Assembly (NCBI GenBank): GCA_002162955.1
Contig: MABD01000018.1
Location: forward strand, 124,001 to 188,000
Source of the DNA: Gammaproteobacteria bacterium 45_16_T64
GTDB lineage: Bacteria; Pseudomonadota; Gammaproteobacteria; Pseudomonadales; Ketobacteraceae
Reading direction: 5' to 3'
DNA length: 64,000 nucleotides
The position numbers were made by a program, and so were the translations under genes. Under the pieces are notes generated by a model. It was not told the DNA's origin. It made no database searches and saw only the letters and a program-made list of their open reading frames with translations. Positions 12,958 to 29,447 of the stretch are shown piece by piece. Position 1 is the first letter of the stretch; every line of letters starts with the position of its first letter.

Positions 12958-13245
12958 TTAGGAAATTTTGTATAGCAACAATGCCATCACCGCAATTAAA
13001 GCGATAGAGGCAACCCCAGCCATGCGCCACCAAAACAGAGTCGCATCTCTTTGCTCTCGCGCAGCTTTGTGAGGGTCATACGGAGGCATATCCTGAGTAT
13101 CCTCATTATCTAACTCAAGACATTGTACCAATAGCTCTTTACGTCGCTGACGATACTCACCCTTGTTAAAGTGACCATCCGCATAATTCCTGGCTAATTC
13201 GCGTACTTTATTTCCGATGCTTTCTTCTAGTTGTTTATTCATCAT
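12958..13245 (-). CDS. Tail-anchored hypothetical protein at end of T6SS operon
   Basis: A 95-residue protein, not recognised. It has a soluble N-terminal helical part (ARNYADGHFNKGEYRQRRKE, resembling a short SHOCT-like hairpin, where Gly and Tyr sit between two helices) and one C-terminal membrane helix (about residues 72-92, MAGVASIALIAVMALLLYKI) ending at the protein's end. This layout implies a tail-anchored inner-membrane protein facing the cytoplasm. It is the last gene of the tagH-to-pppA operon and its start overlaps the pppA stop by 4 bases (ATGA), so it is translationally coupled to the phosphatase. A role with PppA or the T6SS membrane complex is inferred from this coupling only. 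Confidence 0.75.
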   Translation of the reverse strand: MMNKQLEESIGNKVRELARNYADGHFNKGEYRQRRKELLVQCLELDNEDTQDMPPYDPHKAAREQRDATLFWWRMAGVASIALIAVMALLLYKIS

Positions 13246-13964
13246 ACAGCCTGAACAGCAATTACCGTGACGTTATCTCTTGCTTCATTCTTCAGAGCAT
13301 CATTTACAAAGTCATTTGCATAATCTTCTACACTACTTAGTCTTAAGCGAGACAGCATTTCATCATGGGACAACGCGCCATACAAGCCATCGCTGCACAA
13401 AACGTAAATATCCTTGGGTTTCATCTCAAAAACTGTGACATCAACATATAGTATATCTGTTGCCCCAACGGCACGAGTTATCACATTTGAAGATGGATGA
13501 TTCACCGCCTCCTCTTCCGTAATTAAACCTCTTGCAAGCATCTCATTGACCTGACTATGATCTTCGGAGATTTGCTCAAGCATACCCCCGCGGTATCGGT
13601 ATAACCTCGAATCTCCCGCCCACATACAGACCCCAACTTTATCCCTTGCAAACATAGCAACAACGGTACTACCCATTGTTCTACCATCGCAATGAGTTCG
13701 AGAATATACCCGAATCTCATGATGCACTTCAAGCAAGGTATCTTCTATGCTATCAACTAAATCGGGTATGTCTAAGTCAGTATTCATTTTACCGAGAGCA
13801 GTAGTAATCATCTCACTAGCGACTTCGCCAGCATCATGCCCTCCCATACCATCAGCCACGACCCAGAAACTGTCTTCTGTTCGCGACATCAAAGAATCTT
13901 CGTTCATATTACGAACAGCCCCGCAATGGGTTGTCGCACTCTCTAACCAGGACTGCTCAGTCAT
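13242..13964 (-). CDS. pppA: PP2C-family Ser/Thr phosphatase of the T6SS (PppA/Stp-like)
   Basis: A 240-residue PP2C phosphatase with all metal-binding blocks: GAVRNMNEDS, VVADGMGGHDAGEVAS, MWAGDSRLYRYRGG, ARDNVTVIAVQ and LCSDGLYGAL. In T6SS clusters PppA removes phosphate from the FHA protein and turns the system down, opposing the PpkA kinase. Here it sits directly after tagF (8-base overlap) and before the 95-residue tail-anchored gene (4-base overlap), so the three are coupled. The matching Ser/Thr kinase is about 14 kb away at 27679-29028. Family certain; target inferred from established T6SS biology. Confidence 0.92.
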   Translation of the reverse strand: MTEQSWLESATTHCGAVRNMNEDSLMSRTEDSFWVVADGMGGHDAGEVASEMITTALGKMNTDLDIPDLVDSIEDTLLEVHHEIRVYSRTHCDGRTMGSTVVAMFARDKVGVCMWAGDSRLYRYRGGMLEQISEDHSQVNEMLARGLITEEEAVNHPSSNVITRAVGATDILYVDVTVFEMKPKDIYVLCSDGLYGALSHDEMLSRLRLSSVEDYANDFVNDALKNEARDNVTVIAVQAV

Positions 13965-14778
13965 TCATTTGCTCTTCATTAATGACGGTAGACTCATCAT
14001 CTCCCGCCGAATCAGGTACAGGTATCAGTTGCTCGTTTTGTGGAATCACGCCAAACGGGCTATTCCAGCTCCACTGCTGCCACTGACCATCCAGCATTGC
14101 CACAAACATTTGCGCAGGTGGTAAATGTCCAGAGACCAAAAAAGAAGGCGTGACGTATTCTGACCCTGTGCTCCACCATAAACTATAGCTTGGTAAACGC
14201 TGTTGTAGGAAACAATCCAGTAAAAAAGGGTGGCTTAACAGCGGATTTTGCTCCGCTTTTTCCATTTGAAGCGCTATAGGGCGCGAAAAATCCAGTGCAA
14301 CAGACTTGGTCGCAATGCCAGATAATTGAATAGGGGGAATACTCTCCAGGGCCTGATTAACACTCTCAACCGAGCCATGCTCATCCAGCCCAGATAACGC
14401 TATTTGCTCTAGCTCTCTAAATACGCTTTCTCCGCTCACCATCAACTCAACGGGGCTCGTGCTTTGCGGATAAGGCACCGCTAATGTTAGGGGAAAGTAC
14501 CGCCCCACTTTATCGACACTGGGCATCATCACTCCTACCCACACATTGCTATCGATAACACCCGGAGAAAGAGCAAAGCGCCACAATGGGCTGGTCAAAT
14601 ATAAATCAAGCCAGCGACCACCCAACTGCTCCTGACTACTGGCAACAGATCGCTGTAACCAATCATCCCACCCCTGTACAAACTCTGGCGATAGGTTTCT
14701 GCTTAAAAAATCACCATGTGCAGGAAGCTTGCCGTAAAGGCCAGCACCGCTTTGTGGTGTACTACTGAGATCATGCAT
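13957..14778 (-). CDS. tagF: T6SS-associated protein TagF
   Basis: A 273-residue protein with the TagF (BMA_A0400) hallmark N-terminus: GLYGKLPAHGDFLSRNL, then WDDWLQRSVASS, SPLWRFALSPGVI, WVGVMMPSVDKVGRYFPLTLA. TagF is a cytoplasmic post-translational repressor of the T6SS that, in Pseudomonas, works in parallel to or through the FHA/threonine phosphorylation pathway; in some bacteria it is fused to PppA. Here tagF and pppA are separate but overlap by 8 bases, echoing that fusion. It starts 2 bases after the tssM stop. Length is normal for a family member with a C-terminal extension. Confidence 0.93.
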   Translation of the reverse strand: MHDLSSTPQSGAGLYGKLPAHGDFLSRNLSPEFVQGWDDWLQRSVASSQEQLGGRWLDLYLTSPLWRFALSPGVIDSNVWVGVMMPSVDKVGRYFPLTLAVPYPQSTSPVELMVSGESVFRELEQIALSGLDEHGSVESVNQALESIPPIQLSGIATKSVALDFSRPIALQMEKAEQNPLLSHPFLLDCFLQQRLPSYSLWWSTGSEYVTPSFLVSGHLPPAQMFVAMLDGQWQQWSWNSPFGVIPQNEQLIPVPDSAGDDESTVINEEQMND

Positions 14779-14780
14779 CG

Positions 14781-17700
14781 TTACAATGCCTCCGGGCAGC
14801 GATAGCGAGAGATTGCTTTGGATTGAAACGGGTTATTAATGCTCTTTGCCGTTACCTGCCACGTTGCGTTTCTGCCCAATGTCGCAAATGTCACGTGATA
14901 GACATTAGACCTACGAGTTTGGCTCACTGTTGATTCATCCATTAACCTAAAAAATGCCCACGGCCCATCATAGGTCACGCGTTTTATGGAATCGTTCAGA
15001 TCTTCGAATATCATTCTTACATTTGTACCGCCGTCACCGGGCCAATTGACACTCTTCGATATCTTAGGTCCATGGGTATAGCGCAGCCGCTGATCACCGA
15101 AAGACAAATCAAACTTGCGCACACTTGAATCCATTCTATAGGGCTTCACTTTGAAGCTGAATCCAGGAGCTGTTGGGTTCGATGCAAACAACATCGTCTT
15201 AATCTGTACCGCACGACGCATTTGATCGATGCTATTACCAGAGATAGCCAATCCTCTTCCGTCCAACCGCTTCACTGTCCATGAATCATTTACGTCAACA
15301 AAGGGCGTTATATATTCTTGCACAAAACGATCATGCACACCTTCTGGCTTAAAATATTCTGAAAAGTCAAAAACTGCCAATTCGTCTACCGCATTTTCAT
15401 AGAGTGGATAGCGATTAGACAAGGCTGAAACATAACGACGATATACCTGCGTATTCCATTCTTTATTTACATGGGCTTTAGCATTTAACAACACCAGCCG
15501 CCAAGTTTCATCTGCGACAGTAAATAGCCAGCGCTGAACCGATGTTGGTAAACTAGAAGCATCAATGCGTAACTGCTTAATCACGTCGCCGCCAGCCCCC
15601 GTCATACGACCTTTGGCAGCATTGTAGGCAGCTTCTGCTGCGTTGGGTGCCAAGTTAATTTCATCCAGATACGCTTGCACATTTCGCAGCGTCAACATGG
15701 TTCCGCTGATCCGAGTTGGAACACCTTCCTGGGCCTCGGATAAAAGATTAATTTCTCTAAAATGCTTATCGACAGGAGTCTGTTTGAAAACACCACCGTC
15801 GCCCGAATTACCATCACCACTGAAGAAACTGGCTATTGCACCCGCCTTCTTATTTTTGATTTTCACTTTCGGGATTTTAGGTGAAAGCTCCGTATTTTCA
15901 GCCGTGACATTCAGTACCGCCAAAATTGGAGAATACACCGGATCGGCGAGAAGCGCTAAAATACGACGACTCTGTTGTAGGTCTGAAAAAGCATTAACCG
16001 ACATGCCATTGACAAAGCTACTCCATCGATCGATATATTCAGCCATATAGAGGCTTCGAATACGCTCGCTTATTTTACCCAATTCATTGTTGTTGTAGAC
16101 TGCATCAGCTTCATCACCCAAGATCCAACGATCAGAGAACATCTCTTTGATAATGGGAGAATCCTTCGATAGGTCCACAGTCTTGTAGCCCTCTTTGGTA
16201 AACATATAAGGCATACTAAAGAGCTTGGCATTCTTCTTATTCGCGAACACCGTGCGAGTACTATCACCCAGTAATCCCCGAAGGTCTACCACTCGACTAT
16301 AAGATGGATCGCTCTTAATTCGATTGTAAATACGGCCTGCAACCGGCACTTGACGCAACGCTGAGCGCCCGCGATCTAACGCTTGCGGATTTAACACAAC
16401 AGGAGTCATCGGATTTTCAAGTAAGGTATCTAGATGCACAGTCAGCACTTGCTGAACTTCATCTTGTCCACGAAATTGATTCTCCCAATCCCGTAACAAC
16501 CAGCCCTTTAATATCGCCGGATCTAGCTTATCGCTATCGCCCAACATCAAATAAGCCAGCAATGATTCATGCAACTCTGGGTCAGTAGATTTCGCAGCAT
16601 TTAGGTACTGCTGGAAACGCCAGTCAATTCTAGGAAGAAGCAGTGCTTGCAGCTGCTCAAGGTAGGTTTTCTTAGCGGCTTTATCAACTCGAGAATCATG
16701 TAATCCTAAGCCCGCTAACCAGGGCAAACTCTCCTGATCATAGATTTCACTTGCACGCTTCAACTCTTGCAATGCAGGAATCACCAACCGTAAGTCATGA
16801 TTATCTTCACGAATATTTGAGGCAAAATCTTGATAGCGATCAATATGCCCAGCAACTTGCTCTAAAAACGTTTGATTACGGCTATAGGCTGCGGTCCACA
16901 CAATAATGCTCACCACAAACATCACGGCCAAACCACCGAAGGCACCACGACGCATCCATTTCAGAAGTTGTTCATATTGACGGTTAGAACCCACCATTTC
17001 AGCTTCAGGAAAAATAATATTTTTGAACAGTCGATTAATAAAAAATGCCTTGCCCTGTCCTGGTGTGAGGCTAGCAACTTCTGGAGGCAACCCGAAATTA
17101 GACACTACAGAAGACATCATTCGATCAATCGGCGTACCTTCTTGGGTACCACTAGAGAAGTACACCCCACGTAATAAAGGTTGTTCCTGGAATCGATTGA
17201 GCCCAAAGGTTTGCGCCAGAAAATCCTCAATAGGCGATCGCATGGTTTCAAATTGATTAGGGAAATTGTAGATTGCGGCACGACGCTTAGCATCACGCTC
17301 ACGATGAACTCGATCCAACACTTTTGGTTGCAGTCTGCTCAACAGTTCAGAATATTTGTGTTGGAATAATTTGGTATCAAATGCTTGAGGCTTACCTTCA
17401 TCCGGTAAAGGTAGGGTCATACCCCATACTTGCTCACGCTGCTCAATACCAAGCTCTTCAAAAAACTCACTAAAGCCCGCAACCAAATCACATTTCGTAA
17501 ACATGACATAAATGGGAAAATTAATGCCGAGACTTTCAACCAACTCATCAATACGGGAACGGATGGTTCTGGCGTGATACACCCTCTCATCAGAGGTTTG
17601 CGTTAAAATATCCTGAATGCTAATGGCGATAATGGCACCATTGATAGGGCGGCGCTTACGATGGCGCACCAACAAACTGAGAAACCCCTGCCATGCTTTA

Positions 17701-18308
17701 CTATCAACCACTTTATGAGAGTCTTGTGTCGTATACCGACCTGCGGTATCGATAATGACGGCCTCATTCGTAAACCACCAATCGCAGTTTCGAGTTCCAC
17801 CAATGCCACCAATCGCACCTTTACCCAATTGGTCCGACAAAGGGAATTCTAACCCAGAGTTAACCAATGCTGTAGTTTTACCCGATCCTGGAGGCCCAAT
17901 CACGATGTACCACGGAAGATCATACAGCGCTTTGCTGCCGTTTTTTTGCTTAAACTTGGTTTTCTTCAGGACCGACAACGCTTCTGTAAAACGTTTTTGT
18001 AATACGGCCACTTCTTCACCACCACCGTCCCCGGCCGGAGCAGCATCACTCTCAAGGCCCTGCACATCGCTTAGCAGTTTGTTGTTTCTTTGCTTGTTTC
18101 TCCAAACACCCCAGAGGCTCATCAGCCCCCACAACACAAAAATACTAACAATTGCGATAAGTCGAGACACCTCTGTTCCTAGCGGCGCGTAATTATCCTC
18201 GCCAAATCGAAACAAAGGCCCCCCAAACCAAATCAATACGGACAAAGCCAATAGCCCGATAAAAGTAAGCACACGCTTATCGGTGAAAAATGCAGCAATA
18301 CGTTTCAT
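14781..18308 (-). CDS. tssM: T6SS membrane-complex protein TssM (IcmF/VasK)
   Basis: A 1175-residue inner-membrane protein, normal length. TssM spans the periplasm and, with TssJ and TssL, forms the trans-envelope channel. Seen: two N-terminal membrane helices (about 13-30 and 45-66), a cytoplasmic NTPase-like domain with an intact Walker A (GPPGSGKTT, residues 138-146), WFTNEAVIIDTAGRYTTQD, a third membrane helix (about 453-470) and a large periplasmic part ending in the TssJ-binding beta domain. The conserved Walker A suggests the ATPase-type subgroup. It is preceded by tssL (60-base gap) and followed by tagF. Confidence 0.96.
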   Translation of the reverse strand: MKRIAAFFTDKRVLTFIGLLALSVLIWFGGPLFRFGEDNYAPLGTEVSRLIAIVSIFVLWGLMSLWGVWRNKQRNNKLLSDVQGLESDAAPAGDGGGEEVAVLQKRFTEALSVLKKTKFKQKNGSKALYDLPWYIVIGPPGSGKTTALVNSGLEFPLSDQLGKGAIGGIGGTRNCDWWFTNEAVIIDTAGRYTTQDSHKVVDSKAWQGFLSLLVRHRKRRPINGAIIAISIQDILTQTSDERVYHARTIRSRIDELVESLGINFPIYVMFTKCDLVAGFSEFFEELGIEQREQVWGMTLPLPDEGKPQAFDTKLFQHKYSELLSRLQPKVLDRVHRERDAKRRAAIYNFPNQFETMRSPIEDFLAQTFGLNRFQEQPLLRGVYFSSGTQEGTPIDRMMSSVVSNFGLPPEVASLTPGQGKAFFINRLFKNIIFPEAEMVGSNRQYEQLLKWMRRGAFGGLAVMFVVSIIVWTAAYSRNQTFLEQVAGHIDRYQDFASNIREDNHDLRLVIPALQELKRASEIYDQESLPWLAGLGLHDSRVDKAAKKTYLEQLQALLLPRIDWRFQQYLNAAKSTDPELHESLLAYLMLGDSDKLDPAILKGWLLRDWENQFRGQDEVQQVLTVHLDTLLENPMTPVVLNPQALDRGRSALRQVPVAGRIYNRIKSDPSYSRVVDLRGLLGDSTRTVFANKKNAKLFSMPYMFTKEGYKTVDLSKDSPIIKEMFSDRWILGDEADAVYNNNELGKISERIRSLYMAEYIDRWSSFVNGMSVNAFSDLQQSRRILALLADPVYSPILAVLNVTAENTELSPKIPKVKIKNKKAGAIASFFSGDGNSGDGGVFKQTPVDKHFREINLLSEAQEGVPTRISGTMLTLRNVQAYLDEINLAPNAAEAAYNAAKGRMTGAGGDVIKQLRIDASSLPTSVQRWLFTVADETWRLVLLNAKAHVNKEWNTQVYRRYVSALSNRYPLYENAVDELAVFDFSEYFKPEGVHDRFVQEYITPFVDVNDSWTVKRLDGRGLAISGNSIDQMRRAVQIKTMLFASNPTAPGFSFKVKPYRMDSSVRKFDLSFGDQRLRYTHGPKISKSVNWPGDGGTNVRMIFEDLNDSIKRVTYDGPWAFFRLMDESTVSQTRRSNVYHVTFATLGRNATWQVTAKSINNPFQSKAISRYRCPEAL

Positions 18309-18368: not shown

Positions 18369-19265
18369 CTATGGCTTTTCCGTCTCTGCGTCTTTTTCTT
18401 CTAGTTCAAGAAATTGTTCATACAGTGGTGTCGATGTGTTGTATAAAGCAAAACGATACCCTGAATAGGTCAACAACATCACAGCGCCAACACAAGCAGC
18501 AACAACCCAAAGCGGAATGTAATGGACCATGGAGGACAACCTACCCTCGACTTGACGCCAATCAAGGGACAAATCAGCCTCAGGCTGCCCTCGAAAACGT
18601 CGAATAGCATGATACAGATCATCTCGTATACTATCTAATTGATCACGTCCTCTATCCTGTACACGATACTTGCCTTCGAAGCCAAAACTGATCAACAGAT
18701 ACAGCAACTCCAACACATGTAAGTTCTCTCCAGGAGATTGCTTCATTCGATCAAGAATAAGGAAAAACTTCTCCCCTCCTGCGGTTTCGTTATGAAATGC
18801 GCTCAATAGTGTTTTTTGCCCCCAAGCACTGTTGGCACCCCATGGCGTATTCAGTACTACCTCATCAAGAACAGCACAAATACAATAGCGCGATGCGAGC
18901 ACAACCTCGGGACGCCCGCCTTCTTGTTTAAGTCTCGCCTCAAATTGCTTCAGCTCCTGAGATATCTGATTAAACAACCCTGATACATTCGCATGAGATG
19001 CTGTGTTGCGTAATTTAGCCATTAAACTCAACAGCGTAGAAGCCGCATTTACCACAGGGTTTAGCCCGTCAAACACGTCAATTCGAGTGGACGTCTGATG
19101 CCCCATCATTGGCGGAGGAGTATGTTGGTATGGCGTCGATGGCGGTGGTGGTGGTGCAGCCGGCGGCGCTCCAGCAGGAGGCGGCGCAGGTGCAGGGCCT
19201 CTGCCTCCTGGGTTAGGCCGAATAGGGCCTGAACTTTGTATCAGGGTACGATCATCATCTGACAT
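18369..19265 (-). CDS. tssL: T6SS membrane-complex protein TssL (DotU/IcmH), proline-rich N-terminus
   Basis: A 298-residue DotU-family protein. A disordered N-terminal tail (residues about 14-48) is rich in Pro, Ala and Gly; then the cytoplasmic hook-shaped helical domain (ASTLLSLMAKLRNTAS, YCICAVLDEVVLNTPWGANS, LLYLLISFGFEGKYRV) and a single C-terminal membrane helix (about 253-275). There is no peptidoglycan-binding OmpA domain, so cell-wall anchoring must come from another protein. TssL contacts TssM, TssK and TssE. It sits between tssK and tssM. Confidence 0.95.
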   Translation of the reverse strand: MSDDDRTLIQSSGPIRPNPGGRGPAPAPPPAGAPPAAPPPPPSTPYQHTPPPMMGHQTSTRIDVFDGLNPVVNAASTLLSLMAKLRNTASHANVSGLFNQISQELKQFEARLKQEGGRPEVVLASRYCICAVLDEVVLNTPWGANSAWGQKTLLSAFHNETAGGEKFFLILDRMKQSPGENLHVLELLYLLISFGFEGKYRVQDRGRDQLDSIRDDLYHAIRRFRGQPEADLSLDWRQVEGRLSSMVHYIPLWVVAACVGAVMLLTYSGYRFALYNTSTPLYEQFLELEEKDAETEKP

Positions 19266-21222: not shown

Positions 21223-22995
21223 CTATCTATCTTTATTTCTAGCGGTGGCAAGCGTATTCATTTGCTGCTCGTATGCTTCGGCAAAATCTTCCCCAAACAG
21301 ATCCTGAAAAGCATCTTCCATATTATTTGCCAAATCTTTGTAAAACTCTGCGTAAGATTCCCAATACTTTGCACTTTTTCCCTTCATCAAGCCACCTTTG
21401 CTCTGCTGCTTATCGAATCGCATCGAGAGATTGCTCGGGTCAAATTGCTTCATCATGGAATTAAATGCTTCCCGCATCCCCGCAATAACGGCTATTTGAT
21501 GATCAGCTATATCCTGAAAACCGTGGCGCACTGCCAACACGCCGGGAAGGTATGCGTTGCTTTGCGCCGTAAACATATTCTTCAATGCTTCTTCAACATT
21601 GGGTGAAAACTTGAGCGGGTTATTTTCCGCCGCTTGAATGAGGGTGACGTTCATTCTAAACTCGTTCTTGATGGCATTTCGTGCACCCAATACAGCCATC
21701 AACCCTCTCGTCGACTCAACTGTAATATCCGCTATCAACTGGTTAAAGTTAGCTTTTTGCTCGTCATCAACTTGCGCAGGATCAAGACCCAGCGCTTCGA
21801 TCAATTCATCTGTATTTGACGATGCACCCGCACTTGCCTTATTTGTTGGTTGAACACTCGCAGGGGCACTCGCTTTCTTCTCGCTCTTAATCGTTGCCTT
21901 CGCTGGTGTCGGAATCGGCGCAGCTTTTTTCTCAACAACCTCTTTTGGTGGCGCTACAGGTGCTGCGGCCGCTATCGGTGTAGGCGTGTCATCAAGGCCT
22001 AGAAAAGCATCTAATTCATTAGTTTCCTGTTGCGCGACATCTTGAGCGTCTTGTTGCGCACCAGGAAGCTCCACATCGGCTGATAACAAGGATTCAATTT
22101 CATCAAGAATTTGACCTTTTTCAGCATCGCTGGTCATTGCAGAAGGCGCGGCAGAAATCACTGCTGGAGGTGGCTCGACAACAGGAGCTGCTGGGGTTGG
22201 CTTTACCACTGGCGCCGGCGGAGGCGGAGCAGCAGCCAGAATTGGCATATCACTGGCGCTATCAAGGTCATCTCCGCCGAGTAAGTCGTCAATATCCCAA
22301 TCATCAGGAATAGATTGTGCTGAAACCGGTGTTACGGGCTCTGGCGCTACTTCTACGGGAGCAACGGGAAGAGGAGCCAGAGGAGCGTCATTATCGCTCA
22401 CTGACGGCGGTAACGAAAAGGCCTGTTCGATCGGCAATGCATTATCAGGTTGACTTGAACCCAGCCAATCTTCATCAGGAATCCCCCCGTTACCAGAGCT
22501 CCCGACGCCTACGCTTGAGGTTGCTTTATCCAATGCTGCTAAGGGGTCAAGCTCTTCAGATTCAGACAGAAGGTCAGCCCCTCCCGCAGTATCCACGATA
22601 TTAAAATCGCTAGCAGGCTTAGGATCTAACCATTGGTCAAAGTCATTGAGATTCATATTATCGGCAACCGGTGACTCTTCTAAGTCGACGGTTAATTCGT
22701 ACTCACCAAAATACAGCCTATCACCCTGAGTCAGCGCCACTTGGTTTCCAGTGCCCAACGCTTCATCGGTATTATTGTGATATACACCATTTGTACTGGT
22801 ATCAACTAAGTAAAACTGATTACCTTCGCAACGAATACTTGCATGACGAGAAGATACAAACCGTTCAGGGTCCGGTAATTGCCAATTATTCTCAGCATTG
22901 CGGCCGATAGTTCCACCGGCAACGTCAAAAGTCATGCGTGTTTGCGCTAGTTCAACTCCCTGCGGCTGGCGTACAATTGTGAGTACCAATGACAT
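21223..22995 (-). CDS. tagH: T6SS FHA-domain protein TagH
   Basis: A 590-residue protein: an N-terminal FHA domain (residues about 20-105; TIGRNAENNWQLPDPERFVS, SSRHASIRC and NGVYHNN are the phosphothreonine-binding loops), a long low-complexity linker rich in Ala, Pro, Val and Asp (about 115-390), and a C-terminal VasC/ImpI-type domain (about 395-590; LMAVLGARNAIKNEFRMNVT, WESYAEFYKDLANNMEDAF). FHA proteins read phosphothreonine and switch on T6SS assembly when the kinase is active. It is the first gene of the tagH-tssJ-tssK-tssL-tssM-tagF-pppA operon and divergent from the lipoprotein hydrolase at 23120, so one promoter region may serve both. Confidence 0.94.
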   Translation of the reverse strand: MSLVLTIVRQPQGVELAQTRMTFDVAGGTIGRNAENNWQLPDPERFVSSRHASIRCEGNQFYLVDTSTNGVYHNNTDEALGTGNQVALTQGDRLYFGEYELTVDLEESPVADNMNLNDFDQWLDPKPASDFNIVDTAGGADLLSESEELDPLAALDKATSSVGVGSSGNGGIPDEDWLGSSQPDNALPIEQAFSLPPSVSDNDAPLAPLPVAPVEVAPEPVTPVSAQSIPDDWDIDDLLGGDDLDSASDMPILAAAPPPPAPVVKPTPAAPVVEPPPAVISAAPSAMTSDAEKGQILDEIESLLSADVELPGAQQDAQDVAQQETNELDAFLGLDDTPTPIAAAAPVAPPKEVVEKKAAPIPTPAKATIKSEKKASAPASVQPTNKASAGASSNTDELIEALGLDPAQVDDEQKANFNQLIADITVESTRGLMAVLGARNAIKNEFRMNVTLIQAAENNPLKFSPNVEEALKNMFTAQSNAYLPGVLAVRHGFQDIADHQIAVIAGMREAFNSMMKQFDPSNLSMRFDKQQSKGGLMKGKSAKYWESYAEFYKDLANNMEDAFQDLFGEDFAEAYEQQMNTLATARNKDR

Positions 22996-23119
22996 ATATA
23001 ATTCTCGTTGTCTTAATAGGGTAATTCCGATTTACTAATATTACCTTTGAGTTGGCATTCAACCAACTTTTTATCACAATAAATCAACAGCTTCCTTGAA
23101 CCAACGAAAGCAATTCATC

Positions 23120-23962
23120 ATGAAAAAACGTCAGCGCCTATTTTATCGTACAATTTGCCTCATTCTGTGTGGAGCCTTGCTTAGTTGTAGCTCCACCCCA
23201 TACGAACAAAATGTAGCCAAAGACTACAAAGCCAACCTCCAAACGGTTTCTGGTAACCCGTTCATCCATAAAGTGTATGTCAACCCAGCCGCTTTTACCG
23301 ATCAAACTGATGAAAGAAAACAGCGTTTTCTTCATGTTTATGTCGGCGGTGACGGACGACCATATGTAAATGGCAAATTTACCCTTAATCCAACGCCACT
23401 CAATCCATTGTTGCTTGGGTTGATGGAGCAAGATTCCCAGCCCGCAATCTATCTCGGGCGCCCGTGCTACTTCAACCCAGAGGACAGCCAATGTGACCCA
23501 ACCTGGTGGACACTTCGACGCTACAGCGAAAAAGTCGTCAATAGCATGATCAGTGCCCTCTCCAACTACAGTAAGCACTACGATCATATCGTACTGGTCG
23601 GCTATAGCGGCGGTGGCGCGCTTGCCATGCTTATGGCCGAAAAGATACCCAAAGTACGAATACTGGTGACTGTCGCGGGTAATTTGGATATTTTCGAGTG
23701 GACCACGTATCACCAATACACGCCATTAATGGAGTCTATCAATCCCGCTGAGCAGCCTCCATTAAGAAACAACATCATCCAACTCCACTATGCTGGGGAA
23801 GATGATGACAATATCAAAGCAGATTGGATCAAAACGGTCTCCGAAAAACAAAAACGCGCCGAATTCCACCTGATCGAGGAAGCAGACCATACATGCTGTT
23901 GGAGCGAGTTATGGCCCGGTGTCCTCGAAAAAGTTAAGTCATATGAATCATTTGTAGACTAA
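23120..23962 (+). CDS. Lipoprotein alpha/beta hydrolase next to T6SS genes
   Basis: A 280-residue lipoprotein if started at the ATG at 23120; an upstream in-frame TTG (23096) seems unlikely. The signal peptide ends LCGALLSC. The fold is an alpha/beta hydrolase: nucleophile Ser in VLVGYSGGGALAM, probable acid in YAGEDDDNIKADW, His in EEADHTCCW, so the triad looks complete. LHVYVGGDGRPY near the N-terminus and CYFNPEDSQCDPTWW (possible disulfide) are further landmarks. Relatives are esterases or lipases of unknown substrate. It is divergent from tagH and co-oriented with the caspase-fold gene, so a link to the T6SS is suggested by position; no immunity or effector marker is visible. Confidence 0.75.
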   Translation: MKKRQRLFYRTICLILCGALLSCSSTPYEQNVAKDYKANLQTVSGNPFIHKVYVNPAAFTDQTDERKQRFLHVYVGGDGRPYVNGKFTLNPTPLNPLLLGLMEQDSQPAIYLGRPCYFNPEDSQCDPTWWTLRRYSEKVVNSMISALSNYSKHYDHIVLVGYSGGGALAMLMAEKIPKVRILVTVAGNLDIFEWTTYHQYTPLMESINPAEQPPLRNNIIQLHYAGEDDDNIKADWIKTVSEKQKRAEFHLIEEADHTCCWSELWPGVLEKVKSYESFVD

Positions 23963-24126
23963 GCTGCTCAACGAGGGTCAGATTACAGCGCTCGATGGTA
24001 AGCTGCTGCAAATTTTACCCATCTAAAATGTGCATTATTCACCATTATTACCGGCCCAGTGTTTATATACTGGGTGGTAACGTTAAGGTCACACAGATAC
24101 ATCTGGCAGGTACACAAGGTAGAATC

Positions 24127-26178
24127 ATGAGGTTATCCATTATGAACACTAACGCACTCCGTGCTTTTCTCACCGGTAGCATCGCATTCAGCATTACCCT
24201 GTTGGCTGGCTGCGCCATCAATGGCAGCACCGACATCCCCAAGGAAGCCTCTCGCAATGCAGATGACCTGTTAATCATTGACTGCCTGCTACCTGGACAA
24301 GTTAGGAAGCTAGGCAGCTTTTCAACCTATATCACAGCGCGCCGCCCCATTAAGACGTCAGCGTCAGATTGTGAAATCCGCGGTGGCGAATATGTCGCCT
24401 TTGATCGCGCAGATTACGCTACAGCGTTGAAAATTTGGCTTCCCGTCGCCCAATCAGGTGACCCCGAAGCGCAAACCTATGTCGGTGAAATATTTGAGAA
24501 AGGCTTAGGGTTGCAACCCGATTATGCGCTTGCCGTACAGTGGTATGAAAAGGCAGCAGAGCAGAACTTCTCTCGTGCACAGATTAACCTTGGTAACCTT
24601 TACGAAAAAGGCCTAGGGGTAACCCAAGACAAGGCAATCGCGCTTAATTGGTATAGACGAGCATCCGGCATGAAGAATGATGACCTTCTCTATGCCTCAA
24701 CAGTAGAAATCAACTCAAATGCGCAAAAAGAACTCGATGCGCTGAAGGACGTAGTTCGCACCAAGAACCAGCAATTAGAATCGATGCAATCTCGACTCGC
24801 TCGCACACAGAAGCAACTTAAAGACGGCAAGCATGCCCTCGTTGCCGCAGAGAAGAGTCAAAAAGAAAAGGAACTCGAGCTATTTGCCCAAGAATCAAAA
24901 GCCATTCACGAGCAAAGCAGAGAAACTATCAAAGCCTTACGCTTAGCGCTGTCTAAGGCTAAAGCCAACGTTGCCGCGCAAAAATCCCAACTCGCCACAC
25001 TCAGCTATGATGCAGAAAGCATGTCCAATGAGATTGAATCAACCACAGAAGACGTGAACCAACAGCAAATGCTGGTTGCTTCAAATGGGCAAGCTCCGTC
25101 AATTGAAATTATCGACCCACCAATGGCATTAATGCGTGGCATTCCAACAATTCGCTTACGTTCTGGCACCAAAGAAAAAGAGATTGTCGGCAAGATTAAA
25201 GCACCCGAAGGCCTAAAAAACTTCAAAGTGAACGGCAGAGCCACCCAAGTTGATGATTACAGCTTGTTCTGGGTAAACGTTCCTGTTAAGTCCGTGCGCA
25301 CCACAGTAAAACTAGAAGCAACGGATAAGAAAGGTCGAGTCGTGAGTTTTGACTTTTCACTCGTCACCGCCAAGAAGCAATTGGCCAGCTCAACTCAAGA
25401 GTCTCGCTCTGCACCACTTCGTACCAATAAAGACCTAGACTTGGGCAAATATCATGCACTTGTGATCGGTAACAATCGTTATGCCTACTACCCAGACCTA
25501 GAAACACCCAAGAACGACGTTACCGAAGCAGAAGAACTGCTGCGAACCAAGTTTGGGTTTGAGACAACCACCCTTCTTAACGCAACGCGTTATGACATTT
25601 TATCTGCACTAAATACACTGCGTTCAAAGCTAACACCTAAGGATAATTTACTCATCTATTACGCCGGTCACGGTGAACTGGATGATGTAAATAGCCGAGG
25701 CTATTGGCTGCCGGTTGATGCAGAGCCAGGCAATACAGCCAACTGGATTTCAAATGTATCCATCTCAGATATTCTAAACACCATGCCAGCCAAGCATGTA
25801 TTGGTAGTCGCTGACTCTTGTTATGCAGGAACGCTCTCCATGGCGTCTGTACCGAGGATTAACGAAGCGATGACAGATGAGGCCCACGGTGAATGGGTAG
25901 AAATAATGTCCAGGGCACGTGCTAGAACAGTATTGACATCCGGCGGGATCGCCCCGGTACTGGATGGCGGCGGCAGCGGTCATTCTGTATTCTCTCAAGC
26001 ATTCCTAGAAACATTGAACAAGATTGAGGGCGTTACCGAAGGGCACGCTATCTACCGGGATGTGCTAGGTAAAGTCCGACGTAGAGCGCTAGAATTAAAC
26101 CATGAACAGGTACCCGAATACGCTCCAGCCCGATTCGCAGGACATGAAGCTGGTGAGTTTTTCTTTCAGTCAATCTAA
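24127..26178 (+). CDS. Lipoprotein with Sel1 repeats, coiled coil and caspase-fold (C14) domain
   Basis: A 683-residue protein started at 24127 (ATG at 24142 also possible); only this region gives a signal peptide and lipobox (ITLLAGC). Order: N-terminal part, two Sel1/TPR repeats (YVGEIFEKGLGLQPDYALAV, then LGNLYEKGLGVTQDKAIALN), a coiled coil of about 110 residues rich in Lys, Glu and Gln, a beta-rich module (SIEIIDPPMALMRGIPTIRL), and a C-terminal peptidase C14/caspase domain. The catalytic pair is present: His515 in LLIYYAGHGELDD and Cys565 in VVADSCYAGTLSM. The lipoprotein signal means the caspase acts outside the cytoplasm. It lies 164 bases after the hydrolase and before the acidic-Thr-motif gene. 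Substrate unknown; protein-protein platform plus protease is the likely design. Confidence 0.87.
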   Translation: MRLSIMNTNALRAFLTGSIAFSITLLAGCAINGSTDIPKEASRNADDLLIIDCLLPGQVRKLGSFSTYITARRPIKTSASDCEIRGGEYVAFDRADYATALKIWLPVAQSGDPEAQTYVGEIFEKGLGLQPDYALAVQWYEKAAEQNFSRAQINLGNLYEKGLGVTQDKAIALNWYRRASGMKNDDLLYASTVEINSNAQKELDALKDVVRTKNQQLESMQSRLARTQKQLKDGKHALVAAEKSQKEKELELFAQESKAIHEQSRETIKALRLALSKAKANVAAQKSQLATLSYDAESMSNEIESTTEDVNQQQMLVASNGQAPSIEIIDPPMALMRGIPTIRLRSGTKEKEIVGKIKAPEGLKNFKVNGRATQVDDYSLFWVNVPVKSVRTTVKLEATDKKGRVVSFDFSLVTAKKQLASSTQESRSAPLRTNKDLDLGKYHALVIGNNRYAYYPDLETPKNDVTEAEELLRTKFGFETTTLLNATRYDILSALNTLRSKLTPKDNLLIYYAGHGELDDVNSRGYWLPVDAEPGNTANWISNVSISDILNTMPAKHVLVVADSCYAGTLSMASVPRINEAMTDEAHGEWVEIMSRARARTVLTSGGIAPVLDGGGSGHSVFSQAFLETLNKIEGVTEGHAIYRDVLGKVRRRALELNHEQVPEYAPARFAGHEAGEFFFQSI

Positions 26179-26250: not shown

Positions 26251-27669
26251 ATGGAAGAAATCGTCGCCCTGTTCATCGATTATAGAGATCAACGAATTTC
26301 CTATGACGAACTTCATCGCTCGATTCTAGATAAAGCACAACGAGAACCTGCCTTCCAACGCCAGGCTATACCGACGCTGGATCGCATTCAAAAAACCACT
26401 CCCATTGATATCGCCAGCTTTATTACACTGCGAGGGGAGTTGGACACAGAGATCCAGCAATTACCCTCTCCGACCACAAATGAGAATGATGTCACGGATG
26501 AATGTAATGACCCTGACGCAACCTTAGTCACTCAATTACCTTCAGACAATATCCACCCCAATGCTAAGGTAACACACAAGGTTTCAACGACTCCCGTCAC
26601 TTCCGGGCCCAGTGAACCCACCTTGCTCAGCACTCAATCAGGCCTCAATATGGAACAGACAGACAGCAAATCTGCTGCTGAACCTGACCCAGATGAAGCC
26701 ACCATGATTATGCCTGCGGGCATGCTGAGTAACAGCCCATCCGCTCCAGCAAGGGTACCCGCTTTAGATCCTGATGATGAGGAAACGGTGATATCCACTA
26801 TCACCAACCTGGAAGTTGATATTGATGATGAAGAAACACTCATATCTACGTCAACCAACATCCCAACTGTAAATAATGACAACACTGAAGAAGAGACACT
26901 GGTTGCCGGACAAAGCACCAATCCCCCCCCTATTTCTACTCCTACAGCCGGTACAGGACCACACGATTCCACGCTCGTCAATGGTGAAACATCACCTCAG
27001 ATAGCCCCTACCATTGAAGCAGTATCAACACCGTCGAAAAAAACCTCCACTCCTGTAATTATGGCAATAAGCCTTGCCCTCGTGGCTGCTATATCCATGG
27101 GGGTCACATTAGTCAAGACTTCACCACCTTCCAGTCACGATGCGGTAAATACAGAGCCCACTACTCCGGTACCAAACCCTTGGAGCAAGCAACCGAGCAT
27201 AGTAGAAACCGCAGAAACCAATGCCTCCAGCCCCTCCGCCGAAATAACACCCACAACCGATTCAGCGTTGGCACCAGTTACAACCACACCGATAATAGAA
27301 TTAGCACCACCTATTATCCCCAATGAAGAAGTCACGGCTTCGCTGCCTATCACCACATCTGACACAAAAAGCTCACCAATATCCTTCGCATCACCCGCTG
27401 AAGAAGAGAATTACCTGTTTGAACAACTAAAACAAGCCAAGCAAGCAGAGCGACTGACGCCAGCAGAGACACAAGGTACCGCCACGTACTACCTCGTCAA
27501 ACTGATCCAGTTGAACCCCAATTCAGTAAAAATAAGCCAAGCACGCTCACTTATTTCGAAGGCACACTTATCGTTGGCCAATACCGCCAGAGAAAATGAA
27601 GATTGGGATATGGCTCAGCAGCATCTTGATGATGCATTTACCGTGCGGTTACCGGACAGCTACCAATAA
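26251..27669 (+). CDS. Membrane protein with repeated acidic-Thr-hydrophobic motifs; candidate kinase substrate
   Basis: A 472-residue protein, family not recognised. Residues 1-70 are helical and charged; 71-265 are disordered, rich in Thr, Pro, Ser and acids; one membrane helix spans about 268-288; a second disordered Thr/Pro region follows, and the last about 95 residues are helical. In the first disordered part, Thr preceded by acidic or polar residues and followed by two hydrophobic residues recurs seven times: Thr91 (DPDATLV), Thr124 (SEPTLL), Thr151 (PDEATMI), Thr179 (DDEETVI), Thr196 (DDEETLI), Thr216 (EEETLV) and Thr241 (HDSTLV). These look like multisite phosphothreonine motifs that an FHA domain could read. 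The gene converges on a Ser/Thr kinase gene, 9 bases between stops, and its C-terminal helical block resembles the kinase's own. Confidence 0.8.
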   Translation: MEEIVALFIDYRDQRISYDELHRSILDKAQREPAFQRQAIPTLDRIQKTTPIDIASFITLRGELDTEIQQLPSPTTNENDVTDECNDPDATLVTQLPSDNIHPNAKVTHKVSTTPVTSGPSEPTLLSTQSGLNMEQTDSKSAAEPDPDEATMIMPAGMLSNSPSAPARVPALDPDDEETVISTITNLEVDIDDEETLISTSTNIPTVNNDNTEEETLVAGQSTNPPPISTPTAGTGPHDSTLVNGETSPQIAPTIEAVSTPSKKTSTPVIMAISLALVAAISMGVTLVKTSPPSSHDAVNTEPTTPVPNPWSKQPSIVETAETNASSPSAEITPTTDSALAPVTTTPIIELAPPIIPNEEVTASLPITTSDTKSSPISFASPAEEENYLFEQLKQAKQAERLTPAETQGTATYYLVKLIQLNPNSVKISQARSLISKAHLSLANTARENEDWDMAQQHLDDAFTVRLPDSYQ

Positions 27670-27678
27670 CCGCGCATT

Positions 27679-29028
27679 CTAGCCTTTTCGTACTTGCGCC
27701 CTGAGCTCATCCAGTAGCGGTTCGCCCTCAAATAGCTCCTCCGCAAGCGTTAAGTGACGTCGAACTTCATCCTTTTCCCCTTGTAGCCATAAAATATTGG
27801 CTCGCTTAAAGAAACGATTCCGAACTTCATCAAGACCTTGCTTGGCTTTTAAATTCTCGCTATCAACACCCAATACCATTCGATAGGCGTCGTAGGAATT
27901 GCTGCCCTGAGGTGAGACTAAACGCCCGACCAAATAATGCGCACGAGCAACATCCAACAAGCGATTAACTTTATCCAGTTCTGCGGGGGTTAGCTTCGCT
28001 GCCAACCGTTCAGGCTCGGAATATCCGATGTCTGACATATCAGAACTATCTGCCACAGTAGAGACTGTGCTAACTGAACCAGAGGCTGGGTCCACTACCA
28101 CAGAATCAGTCGATAACTGGGTGTAACTGACCCCTCCGCCAACTGCTAATGCTCCGATAACAGCAGCAGTAATCCACCATTTCTGGCTACCACCAGAAAC
28201 GCGCCCTCCCGCACTAATCTTCGCAAGATCATCAATATATTCCTGTGCGGTTTGATAGCGTTGGCTCGCGTTCTTCGCTAACGCTTTTTTTACCACATGA
28301 TCAAAGCTACCCGACAGCTCCTTTCTTACCTGTGACGGAGGCTCCGGCTTTAGATTGATAACATTATGGATGATCGCGTTGGTCTGATCACCTCGAAAAG
28401 GTTTTTTGCCCGTGAGTATTTCATACAGCAATGTACCCACAGAAAACAAATCAGAGCGCGCATCAACACCCGCTCCAATACACTGCTCAGGCGACATATA
28501 AGACGGAGTTCCTAGCACACTGCCCACTTGTGTCAGCTCCGAATCATCCATTCGAGCAATACCAAAATCAGCTATTTTCACTTCGCCTTTTTCGGTAATG
28601 AAAATATTAGCCGGCTTGATATCTCGATGCACGATACCCAGCTTATGGGTATAGGATAGACCGGTGAGGATCTCAGTGGTGATACGAACAACTTCTTCTG
28701 CGGTAAACACTGTACCTTGCTTGATTAGGGATTTAAGATCCTTCCCCTCTACATATTCCATCACAAAATAGGGAGTACCACGATCTTGGTCAAAATCAAA
28801 AATCCCCACGACATTAGGGTGCGTCAATCGGCCAACCGCTTGGGCTTCGGTCTGGAAGCGCTGTAGCATTTCCTTTCCCATTTCACTGGAGAGCAAGTTG
28901 CCGTGAATTGTTTTTACCGCAACGGTACGGGCAATATTTGGGTCATAGGCCTTATAAACCACCCCCATAGCCCCACGCCCCAGTACTCCTTCAATGGTAT
29001 ATTTCCCAATTGTTTCCAGATCTGTCAT
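27679..29028 (-). CDS. Membrane Ser/Thr protein kinase (PknB/PpkA type)
   Basis: A 449-residue Hanks-type kinase. Kinase domain residues about 8-265: Gly-rich loop GRGAMGVVYKAYD, VAVKTI (ATP Lys), HRDIKPANIFI (catalytic loop), DFGIARMDD (metal Asp), GTPSYMSPEQ (activation/P+1), so all catalytic residues are present. One membrane helix follows (about 285-305), then an external or periplasmic helical domain (LTPAELDKVNRLLDVARAHY to the end). Such kinases phosphorylate FHA proteins and themselves; in T6SS loci the kinase PpkA activates secretion. It is convergent with the acidic-Thr-motif gene and 14 kb from pppA. Role as T6SS activator is inferred from the company it keeps. Confidence 0.93.
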   Translation of the reverse strand: MTDLETIGKYTIEGVLGRGAMGVVYKAYDPNIARTVAVKTIHGNLLSSEMGKEMLQRFQTEAQAVGRLTHPNVVGIFDFDQDRGTPYFVMEYVEGKDLKSLIKQGTVFTAEEVVRITTEILTGLSYTHKLGIVHRDIKPANIFITEKGEVKIADFGIARMDDSELTQVGSVLGTPSYMSPEQCIGAGVDARSDLFSVGTLLYEILTGKKPFRGDQTNAIIHNVINLKPEPPSQVRKELSGSFDHVVKKALAKNASQRYQTAQEYIDDLAKISAGGRVSGGSQKWWITAAVIGALAVGGGVSYTQLSTDSVVVDPASGSVSTVSTVADSSDMSDIGYSEPERLAAKLTPAELDKVNRLLDVARAHYLVGRLVSPQGSNSYDAYRMVLGVDSENLKAKQGLDEVRNRFFKRANILWLQGEKDEVRRHLTLAEELFEGEPLLDELRAQVRKG

Positions 29029-29168: not shown

Positions 29169-29447
29169 TCAATCGATCAATTCATAGATGTGATAGGACT
29201 CAGGTAAATATTGATCAATCGCGGTAGCAACATACTCTCCCTGATCGGGTATACCGTCGCCTGTAGCAAAAATCCGATATTTATGAGGCGCTGTACAAGC
29301 CGTCATATCGGCTGTTACCTCAAACCAAAGATTTATTGCTCGGATTGGCATCACGTACTCTGCATGCAGTAAGCGACTACCCTCTGCCAATTCCAATATC
29401 TGAGAATCGGTACTAATATCCAACTGAAATTTATGAATGGTTCTCAT
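29169..29447 (-). CDS. Small DUF7352-like protein
   Basis: A 92-residue soluble protein. It begins MRTIHKFQLDISTDSQILEL and contains SRLLHAEY, INLWFEVTAD and KYRIFATGDGIPDQGEYVAT, which is the conserved layout of DUF7352, a family found in phages and scattered bacterial genomes; I make this call by memory of the family. It is an all-beta mini-domain without catalytic residues. Ribosome site AGAGGAT is good. It is followed by a strong terminator, so it is a stand-alone transcript. Function unknown. Confidence 0.7.
   Translation of the reverse strand: MRTIHKFQLDISTDSQILELAEGSRLLHAEYVMPIRAINLWFEVTADMTACTAPHKYRIFATGDGIPDQGEYVATAIDQYLPESYHIYELID

Follow-up and report, generated by a model that had tools for sequence, protein, structure and literature searches.

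The window is a 64,000-nucleotide stretch of contig MABD01000018.1 of Gammaproteobacteria bacterium 45_16_T64. The following genes are relevant here; the protein encoded between the caspase-like protein and the kinase is hereafter called the motif protein.

13242–13964, minus strand: PP2C phosphatase, Stp1/PppA-like, candidate eraser
13957–14778, minus strand: TagF, of a post-translational T6SS repressor family
14781–18308, minus strand: TssM
18369–19265, minus strand: TssL/DotU, with the N-terminus MSDDDRTLIQ, which carries the motif described below at Thr7 (19245–19247)
21223–22995, minus strand: TagH, with an FHA domain and T6SS_FHA_C, candidate reader
23096–23962, plus strand: alpha/beta hydrolase-like protein with a lipobox-like N-terminus
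23995–26178, plus strand: caspase-like (C14) protein that has Sel1 repeats and a lipobox-like N-terminus; no partner of the kinase is more conserved
26251–27669, plus strand: motif protein, 472 residues, predicted N-in, single-pass membrane protein
27679–29028, minus strand: Hanks Ser/Thr kinase with a kinase domain (residues 10–261), a membrane helix, and a C-terminal domain, candidate writer
29169–29447, minus strand: DUF7352 protein, 92 residues, upstream of the kinase gene and kept there within the family

The open reading frames of the kinase and the motif protein are convergent and 9 bases apart. The catalytic residues of the kinase (K39, HRD, and DFG) are intact, and its order of kinase domain, helix, and C-terminal domain agrees with that of PpkA. 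The first-pass annotation had named a convergent Hanks kinase with TagH and PP2C encoded nearby, and all three are found in the window. The folded N- and C-domains of the motif protein, the motif in TssL, TagF, the caspase-Sel1 partner, and the tss genes on the left flank are features beyond that annotation.

Genes for the T6SS core proteins TssM, TssL, TssK, and TssJ lie inside the window, and tssA-B-C-C'-E-F-G-H-like genes lie on the same contig, left of the window. A Hanks kinase, a PP2C, a T6SS_FHA_C protein, and the core genes, the constituents of the T6SS threonine phosphorylation pathway, are thus all present, and we file the module as a variant of this pathway to which the motif protein is added. 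A different, longer kinase frame, 33% identical to the window kinase, adjoins the other T6SS of the same genome (G000:C8; G denotes a genome, g a genus, f a family, and L a locus). Left of the window, two tssC-like genes are adjacent (G000:C26:112077–114572, L128), as in all tested carrier genomes; such paired tssC genes mark a particular T6SS type. The gene for a 95-residue membrane protein (window positions 12958–13245), which has no family match, stays beside that of the PP2C even in module loci away from tss genes. Promoter and terminator scans gave results not clearly above shuffles.

The motif protein consists of two folded domains separated by a disordered segment, a membrane helix, and a second linker, as predicted.

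26251–26460, plus strand: N-domain (residues 1–70), four helices, pLDDT >90, kept in orthologues, predicted cytoplasmic
26461–27054, plus strand: disordered segment with seven motifs (residues 71–268, ~195 residues), low pLDDT, motif excess
27055–27111, plus strand: membrane helix (about residues 269–287), at a hydropathy peak and helical in the structure model
27373–27666, plus strand: C-domain (about residues 375–472), helical, TPR-like, pLDDT >90, with weak TPR-like fold matches, predicted periplasmic

In the structure prediction, built from 15 aligned relatives, pLDDT is mostly 34–46 over residues 82–268, indicating predicted disorder, and the predicted helix 269–282 coincides with the hydropathy peak. 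The prediction agrees with the earlier description of a disordered stretch ahead of a single membrane helix. The second linker, between the membrane helix and the C-domain, is also of low confidence. Because the protein has no N-terminal signal sequence and has one internal hydrophobic helix, we infer that the N-domain and the motif segment are likely cytoplasmic and the C-domain likely periplasmic. The kinase is laid out in the same order, with a catalytic domain, a helix, and a C-domain, and its C-domain is probably periplasmic as well.

Profile and sequence searches of Pfam, NCBIfam, PADLOC, and PDB sequences gave no family match for the motif protein, and a PDB fold search with the model gave weak TPR-like or designed-helix matches, none of them significant. 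When the C-domain of the motif protein was compared with that of the kinase, hhalign placed 65 columns in register with a probability of 4.6%, which makes homology of the two no more than a lead. A comparison of the N-domain with the 95-residue membrane protein showed no relation.

In the strict motif, as we define it, both residues after Thr belong to VILMF, and D or E lies at most three residues ahead of Thr. The seven acidic or polar Thr-hydrophobic pair motifs claimed for the protein are all confirmed under this definition.

26521–26523, plus strand: Thr91, DPDATLVT, strict motif
26620–26622, plus strand: Thr124, PSEPTLLS, T and L invariant in 10 aligned orthologues
26701–26703, plus strand: Thr151, DEATMIMP, T invariant in 10 aligned orthologues
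26785–26787, plus strand: Thr179, DDEETVIS, T nearly invariant in 10 aligned orthologues
26836–26838, plus strand: Thr196, DDEETLIS, strict motif
26896–26898, plus strand: Thr216, EEETLVA, strict motif
26971–26973, plus strand: Thr241, HDSTLVN, strict motif

Seven of the nine hydrophobic pairs in the disordered segment are preceded by Thr. When the segment is shuffled, the mean number of motifs is 0.48, and seven are reached in 0 of 100,000 shuffles. The motif density is 36 per 1000 residues in the segment versus 1.4 per 1000 residues in the other proteins of the window. All 12 full-length family relatives exceed the shuffles of their own segments (p from 0.009 down to 0 of 20,000 shuffles). 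In four congeners, which are ~40% identical overall, conservation is 93% for the motif Thr versus 21% for the other Thr of the segment. Together, the shuffles and the position-specific conservation rule out chance or composition as the origin of the motifs, and the pattern is that expected if selected sites lie in an otherwise freely evolving disordered segment. The second linker, beyond the membrane helix, is also T-rich; it is motif-free in 13 of 15 sequences, and the other two have one motif each. A Ser version of the motif occurs in none of the 15 sequences of motif-protein relatives, as expected if the readers are pThr-specific FHA domains.

The N-terminus of the window TssL presents the same motif. 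Every genome in which TssL was read has it, in one or two copies: DKTVFT plus a second STVFV- or RTLFI-like site in g5 and g2, and STVILP or DKTVILP in f22. In A. tumefaciens, TssL is phosphorylated at Thr14 (peptide DLPpTVVEI) in a PpkA-dependent manner, and the FHA domain of Fha binds this peptide with a Kd of 1.58 mM, or 0.54 mM for a 20-mer (PMC3953482). The sites of the motif protein match this TssL-type ligand pattern of an upstream acidic residue, Thr, and two hydrophobic residues, and the window TagH keeps the pThr-binding Arg, Ser, and Asn of the FHA domain. Given such affinities, single sites would be weak, and the multivalency of several copies of so weak a ligand would supply the missing strength. 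The match to TssL, which the first-pass annotation had not connected, is the strongest argument from sequence for a phospho-scaffold. An FHA protein other than TagH is a possible reader, since the genome has 13 FHA matches.

The motif protein is a real and conserved partner of a T6SS-associated kinase, and we found no description of it; the literature search, which left most subscription papers outside its reach, returned no paper on the protein or on Ketobacter T6SS regulation. On balance, we favor the reading that it serves as a dedicated, membrane-anchored, multivalent phospho-threonine docking scaffold for TagH within a T6SS regulatory module. The convergent kinase would phosphorylate some or all of the seven sites on the cytoplasmic side. 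Each phosphosite would imitate the N-terminal tail of TssL and be read by the FHA domain of TagH, and through the array a contact that is very weak on its own would become strong and dose-dependent at the membrane. TagH, with the membrane-complex and baseplate parts brought along, would be concentrated where the kinase is active. The PP2C would remove the phospho-marks, and TagF would restrain TagH. The C-domain of the motif protein may tether the scaffold to the kinase or sense the envelope signal that the kinase receives. In this scheme we infer the phosphorylation, the FHA binding, the topology, the graded recruitment, and the activating sign of the scaffold effect. More tentatively, the protein may represent a distinct class of T6SS component, in which an array of copies of the TssL tail seeds clusters of TagH to a degree that follows kinase activity and thereby determines the time and place of assembly.

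Motif-bearing relatives are found only in the family of the window (13 of 15 genomes) and in one other family of the same order, f22 (order-wide profile search, 392 genomes). Strong profile matches comprise those 13 genomes, two f22 genomes, and, from a third family, G046, where the match is C-terminal. A class-wide profile search of 369 genomes found no wider family; it gave five weak partial matches beyond the window genome, four of which fall on the C-domain region inside long reading frames. The f22 relatives have a looser motif, T-x-hydrophobic (TQL, TEL, TRL, and TLL), and in them the strict motif is not above chance (p about 0.2) and the loose form is.

Wherever the locus is intact, the motif-bearing relatives are convergent with Hanks kinase orthologues. 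The protein is tail-to-tail with the same kinase (50–80% identical) in the genus of the window, g2, g3, and g5, and the f22 relatives keep the arrangement. The first-pass annotation had made its proposal depend on co-occurrence with the kinase in related genomes, and a kinase orthologue indeed lies beside the motif protein in both families. In the genus of the window, g2, g3, and g5, the hydrolase and caspase-Sel1 genes precede the motif-protein gene where present on the contig, and the DUF7352 gene lies upstream of the kinase gene in most loci. Synteny of the locus extends across genera, with fliL-like and MATE-like genes next to it.

The module flanks the TssM-L-K-J-TagH genes in the window, and the same holds for g1 and g3 wherever the contig extends far enough; g5 and g2 have these genes at a different genomic location. 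The PP2C is retained in the module in g3, g5, and f22. TagF is kept as well in four g5 genomes (G009, G010, G012, and G014). In f22, the module contains a TagH-family protein (FHA and T6SS_FHA_C) together with the PP2C, and TagF-TssM-L-K-J with their own TagH are on another contig. The TagH-family protein inside the kinase module (L094, 2883–4283; L095, 15062–16405) exists alongside the tss-cluster TagH (read in G035, L104).

Two genomes of the window's family, G008 and G013, have no motif protein, kinase orthologue, or caspase. Both are also without the T6SS with two adjacent tssC genes, which all tested carriers have: in G008, the two tssC-like genes are separated by about 8 kb and TssM gives only a partial match, and G013 retains the other T6SS plus that system's own kinase. 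G046 has no TssC and no TssL match, and its relative of the motif protein lies away from the kinase and is without motifs. This co-occurrence, which involves few events and two family genomes lacking the protein, is consistent with the motifs serving the double-tssC T6SS.

The caspase-Sel1 protein (23995–26178) is 86–90% identical within the genus, far above the conservation of the motif protein. Its pairing with the kinase extends to genomes that lack the motif protein (G045, G153, and G377), and it is probably the ancestral envelope partner of the kinase. G377 has the caspase and a 39% identical kinase; one site, SSEETLLVP, lies within the juxtamembrane segment of this kinase (L126, 9153–10583) itself, possibly a simpler version of the array in this one example. 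Relatives of the caspase and the kinase are present without a T6SS_FHA_C protein in G045 and G153, and also in genomes without TssC (G046). The caspase-kinase pair, judging from these occurrences, is probably older than the association with TagH. Because the pair occurs without TagH or T6SS, the ancestry of the window kinase is not confined to T6SS. The T6SS link of the first-pass annotation stands in part: the association with PP2C, TagF, and TagH-family proteins persists away from tss genes.

The same distribution bears on one of the two main rivals of the FHA-docking scaffold, which we regard as unlikely though worth weighing. The motif protein could be a phospho-scaffold or co-receptor of the kinase that is read by another FHA protein and has an output other than T6SS assembly, the caspase-kinase pair being the real unit and the T6SS genes mere neighbors. 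The pair without TagH or TssC, the modules of g5 and g2 that do not adjoin tss genes, and the thirteen FHA matches all fit this reading. However, the motif-bearing form is absent from G045, G153, and G046, and the module, once separated from the tss genes, still includes TagF or a TagH-family protein.

The other main rival keeps TagH as the reader and reverses the sign, and we give it a small chance. The phospho-array would be a sink or threshold device for TagH that competes with the single TssL tail, and T6SS assembly would start, under this improbable scheme, after the array is dephosphorylated, saturated, or released. The motif is identical in kind to that of TssL, and seven sites could outcompete one. 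In addition, TagF represses T6SS through Fha binding in other species (PMC5995506), so that holding back Fha/TagH is already a mode of control in the pathway, and TagF belongs to the same module. The sequence fits sink and recruiter alike; a kinase that generally activates T6SS would, however, then also make an inhibitor.

It is considerably less probable that the motifs are short linear docking sites used with Thr unmodified, for example for kinase binding. As with linear motifs in general, the acidic context and the pair of hydrophobic residues are conserved too, but none of the 15 sequences has Ser in place of Thr, the protein is encoded together with a kinase and a PP2C phosphatase, and the pattern equals that of a proven Fha phospho-ligand. 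A system of caspase, kinase, and partner for anti-phage or abortive defense, suggested by PADLOC caspase and PD-T4-6 kinase matches, is very improbable and was dropped as the main reading, because these matches cover generic kinase and caspase domains, the synteny is unlike that of a mobile defense island, and PP2C, TagF, and TagH suit T6SS regulation.

The FHA-docking scaffold touches on the question of how a T6SS kinase signal becomes a localized assembly event, given the near-millimolar contact of Fha with the TssL phosphopeptide (PMC3953482). Condensates of Fha and PpkA have recently been proposed to localize T6SS assembly in another species (PMC12607579). If the scaffold is real, avidity and site counting on a naturally multivalent version of the FHA-binding tail would make for a simple mechanism, and the protein would be a ready test substrate. 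The module also indicates that post-translational T6SS control can sit away from the tss genes yet together with TagF, TagH-family proteins, and PP2C.

As an accessory envelope protein encoded beside a T6SS kinase, the motif protein resembles RtkS of Serratia marcescens (PMC6082577), TssW of Acidovorax citrulli (PMC12607579), and TagQRST of Pseudomonas aeruginosa, all of which are encoded next to the T6SS kinase and act together with it. RtkS and TssW, which these papers do not describe as multisite phospho-targets, function on the periplasmic or outer-membrane side, whereas the sites of the motif protein would be cytoplasmic. The proposed scaffold would work like Rv1747 of Mycobacterium tuberculosis, to which no relation was found. 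Rv1747 combines FHA domains with a disordered linker, and its phosphorylation by a kinase drives a clustering that a phosphatase reverses (reviewed in PMC9312465). Both elements of Rv1747 belong to a single ABC transporter, whereas in the window reader and target would be separate proteins. A further comparison is with the PpkA/PppA/Fha/TagF pathway, with which the module shares a membrane Hanks kinase, a PP2C, a TagH-family FHA protein, and TagF, and, as in the A. tumefaciens pathway (PMC3953482), an acidic-x-T-hydrophobic-hydrophobic site at the N-terminus of TssL. Unlike that pathway, the module adds a separate membrane protein with up to seven such sites, and its kinase has a caspase-Sel1 lipoprotein-like partner.
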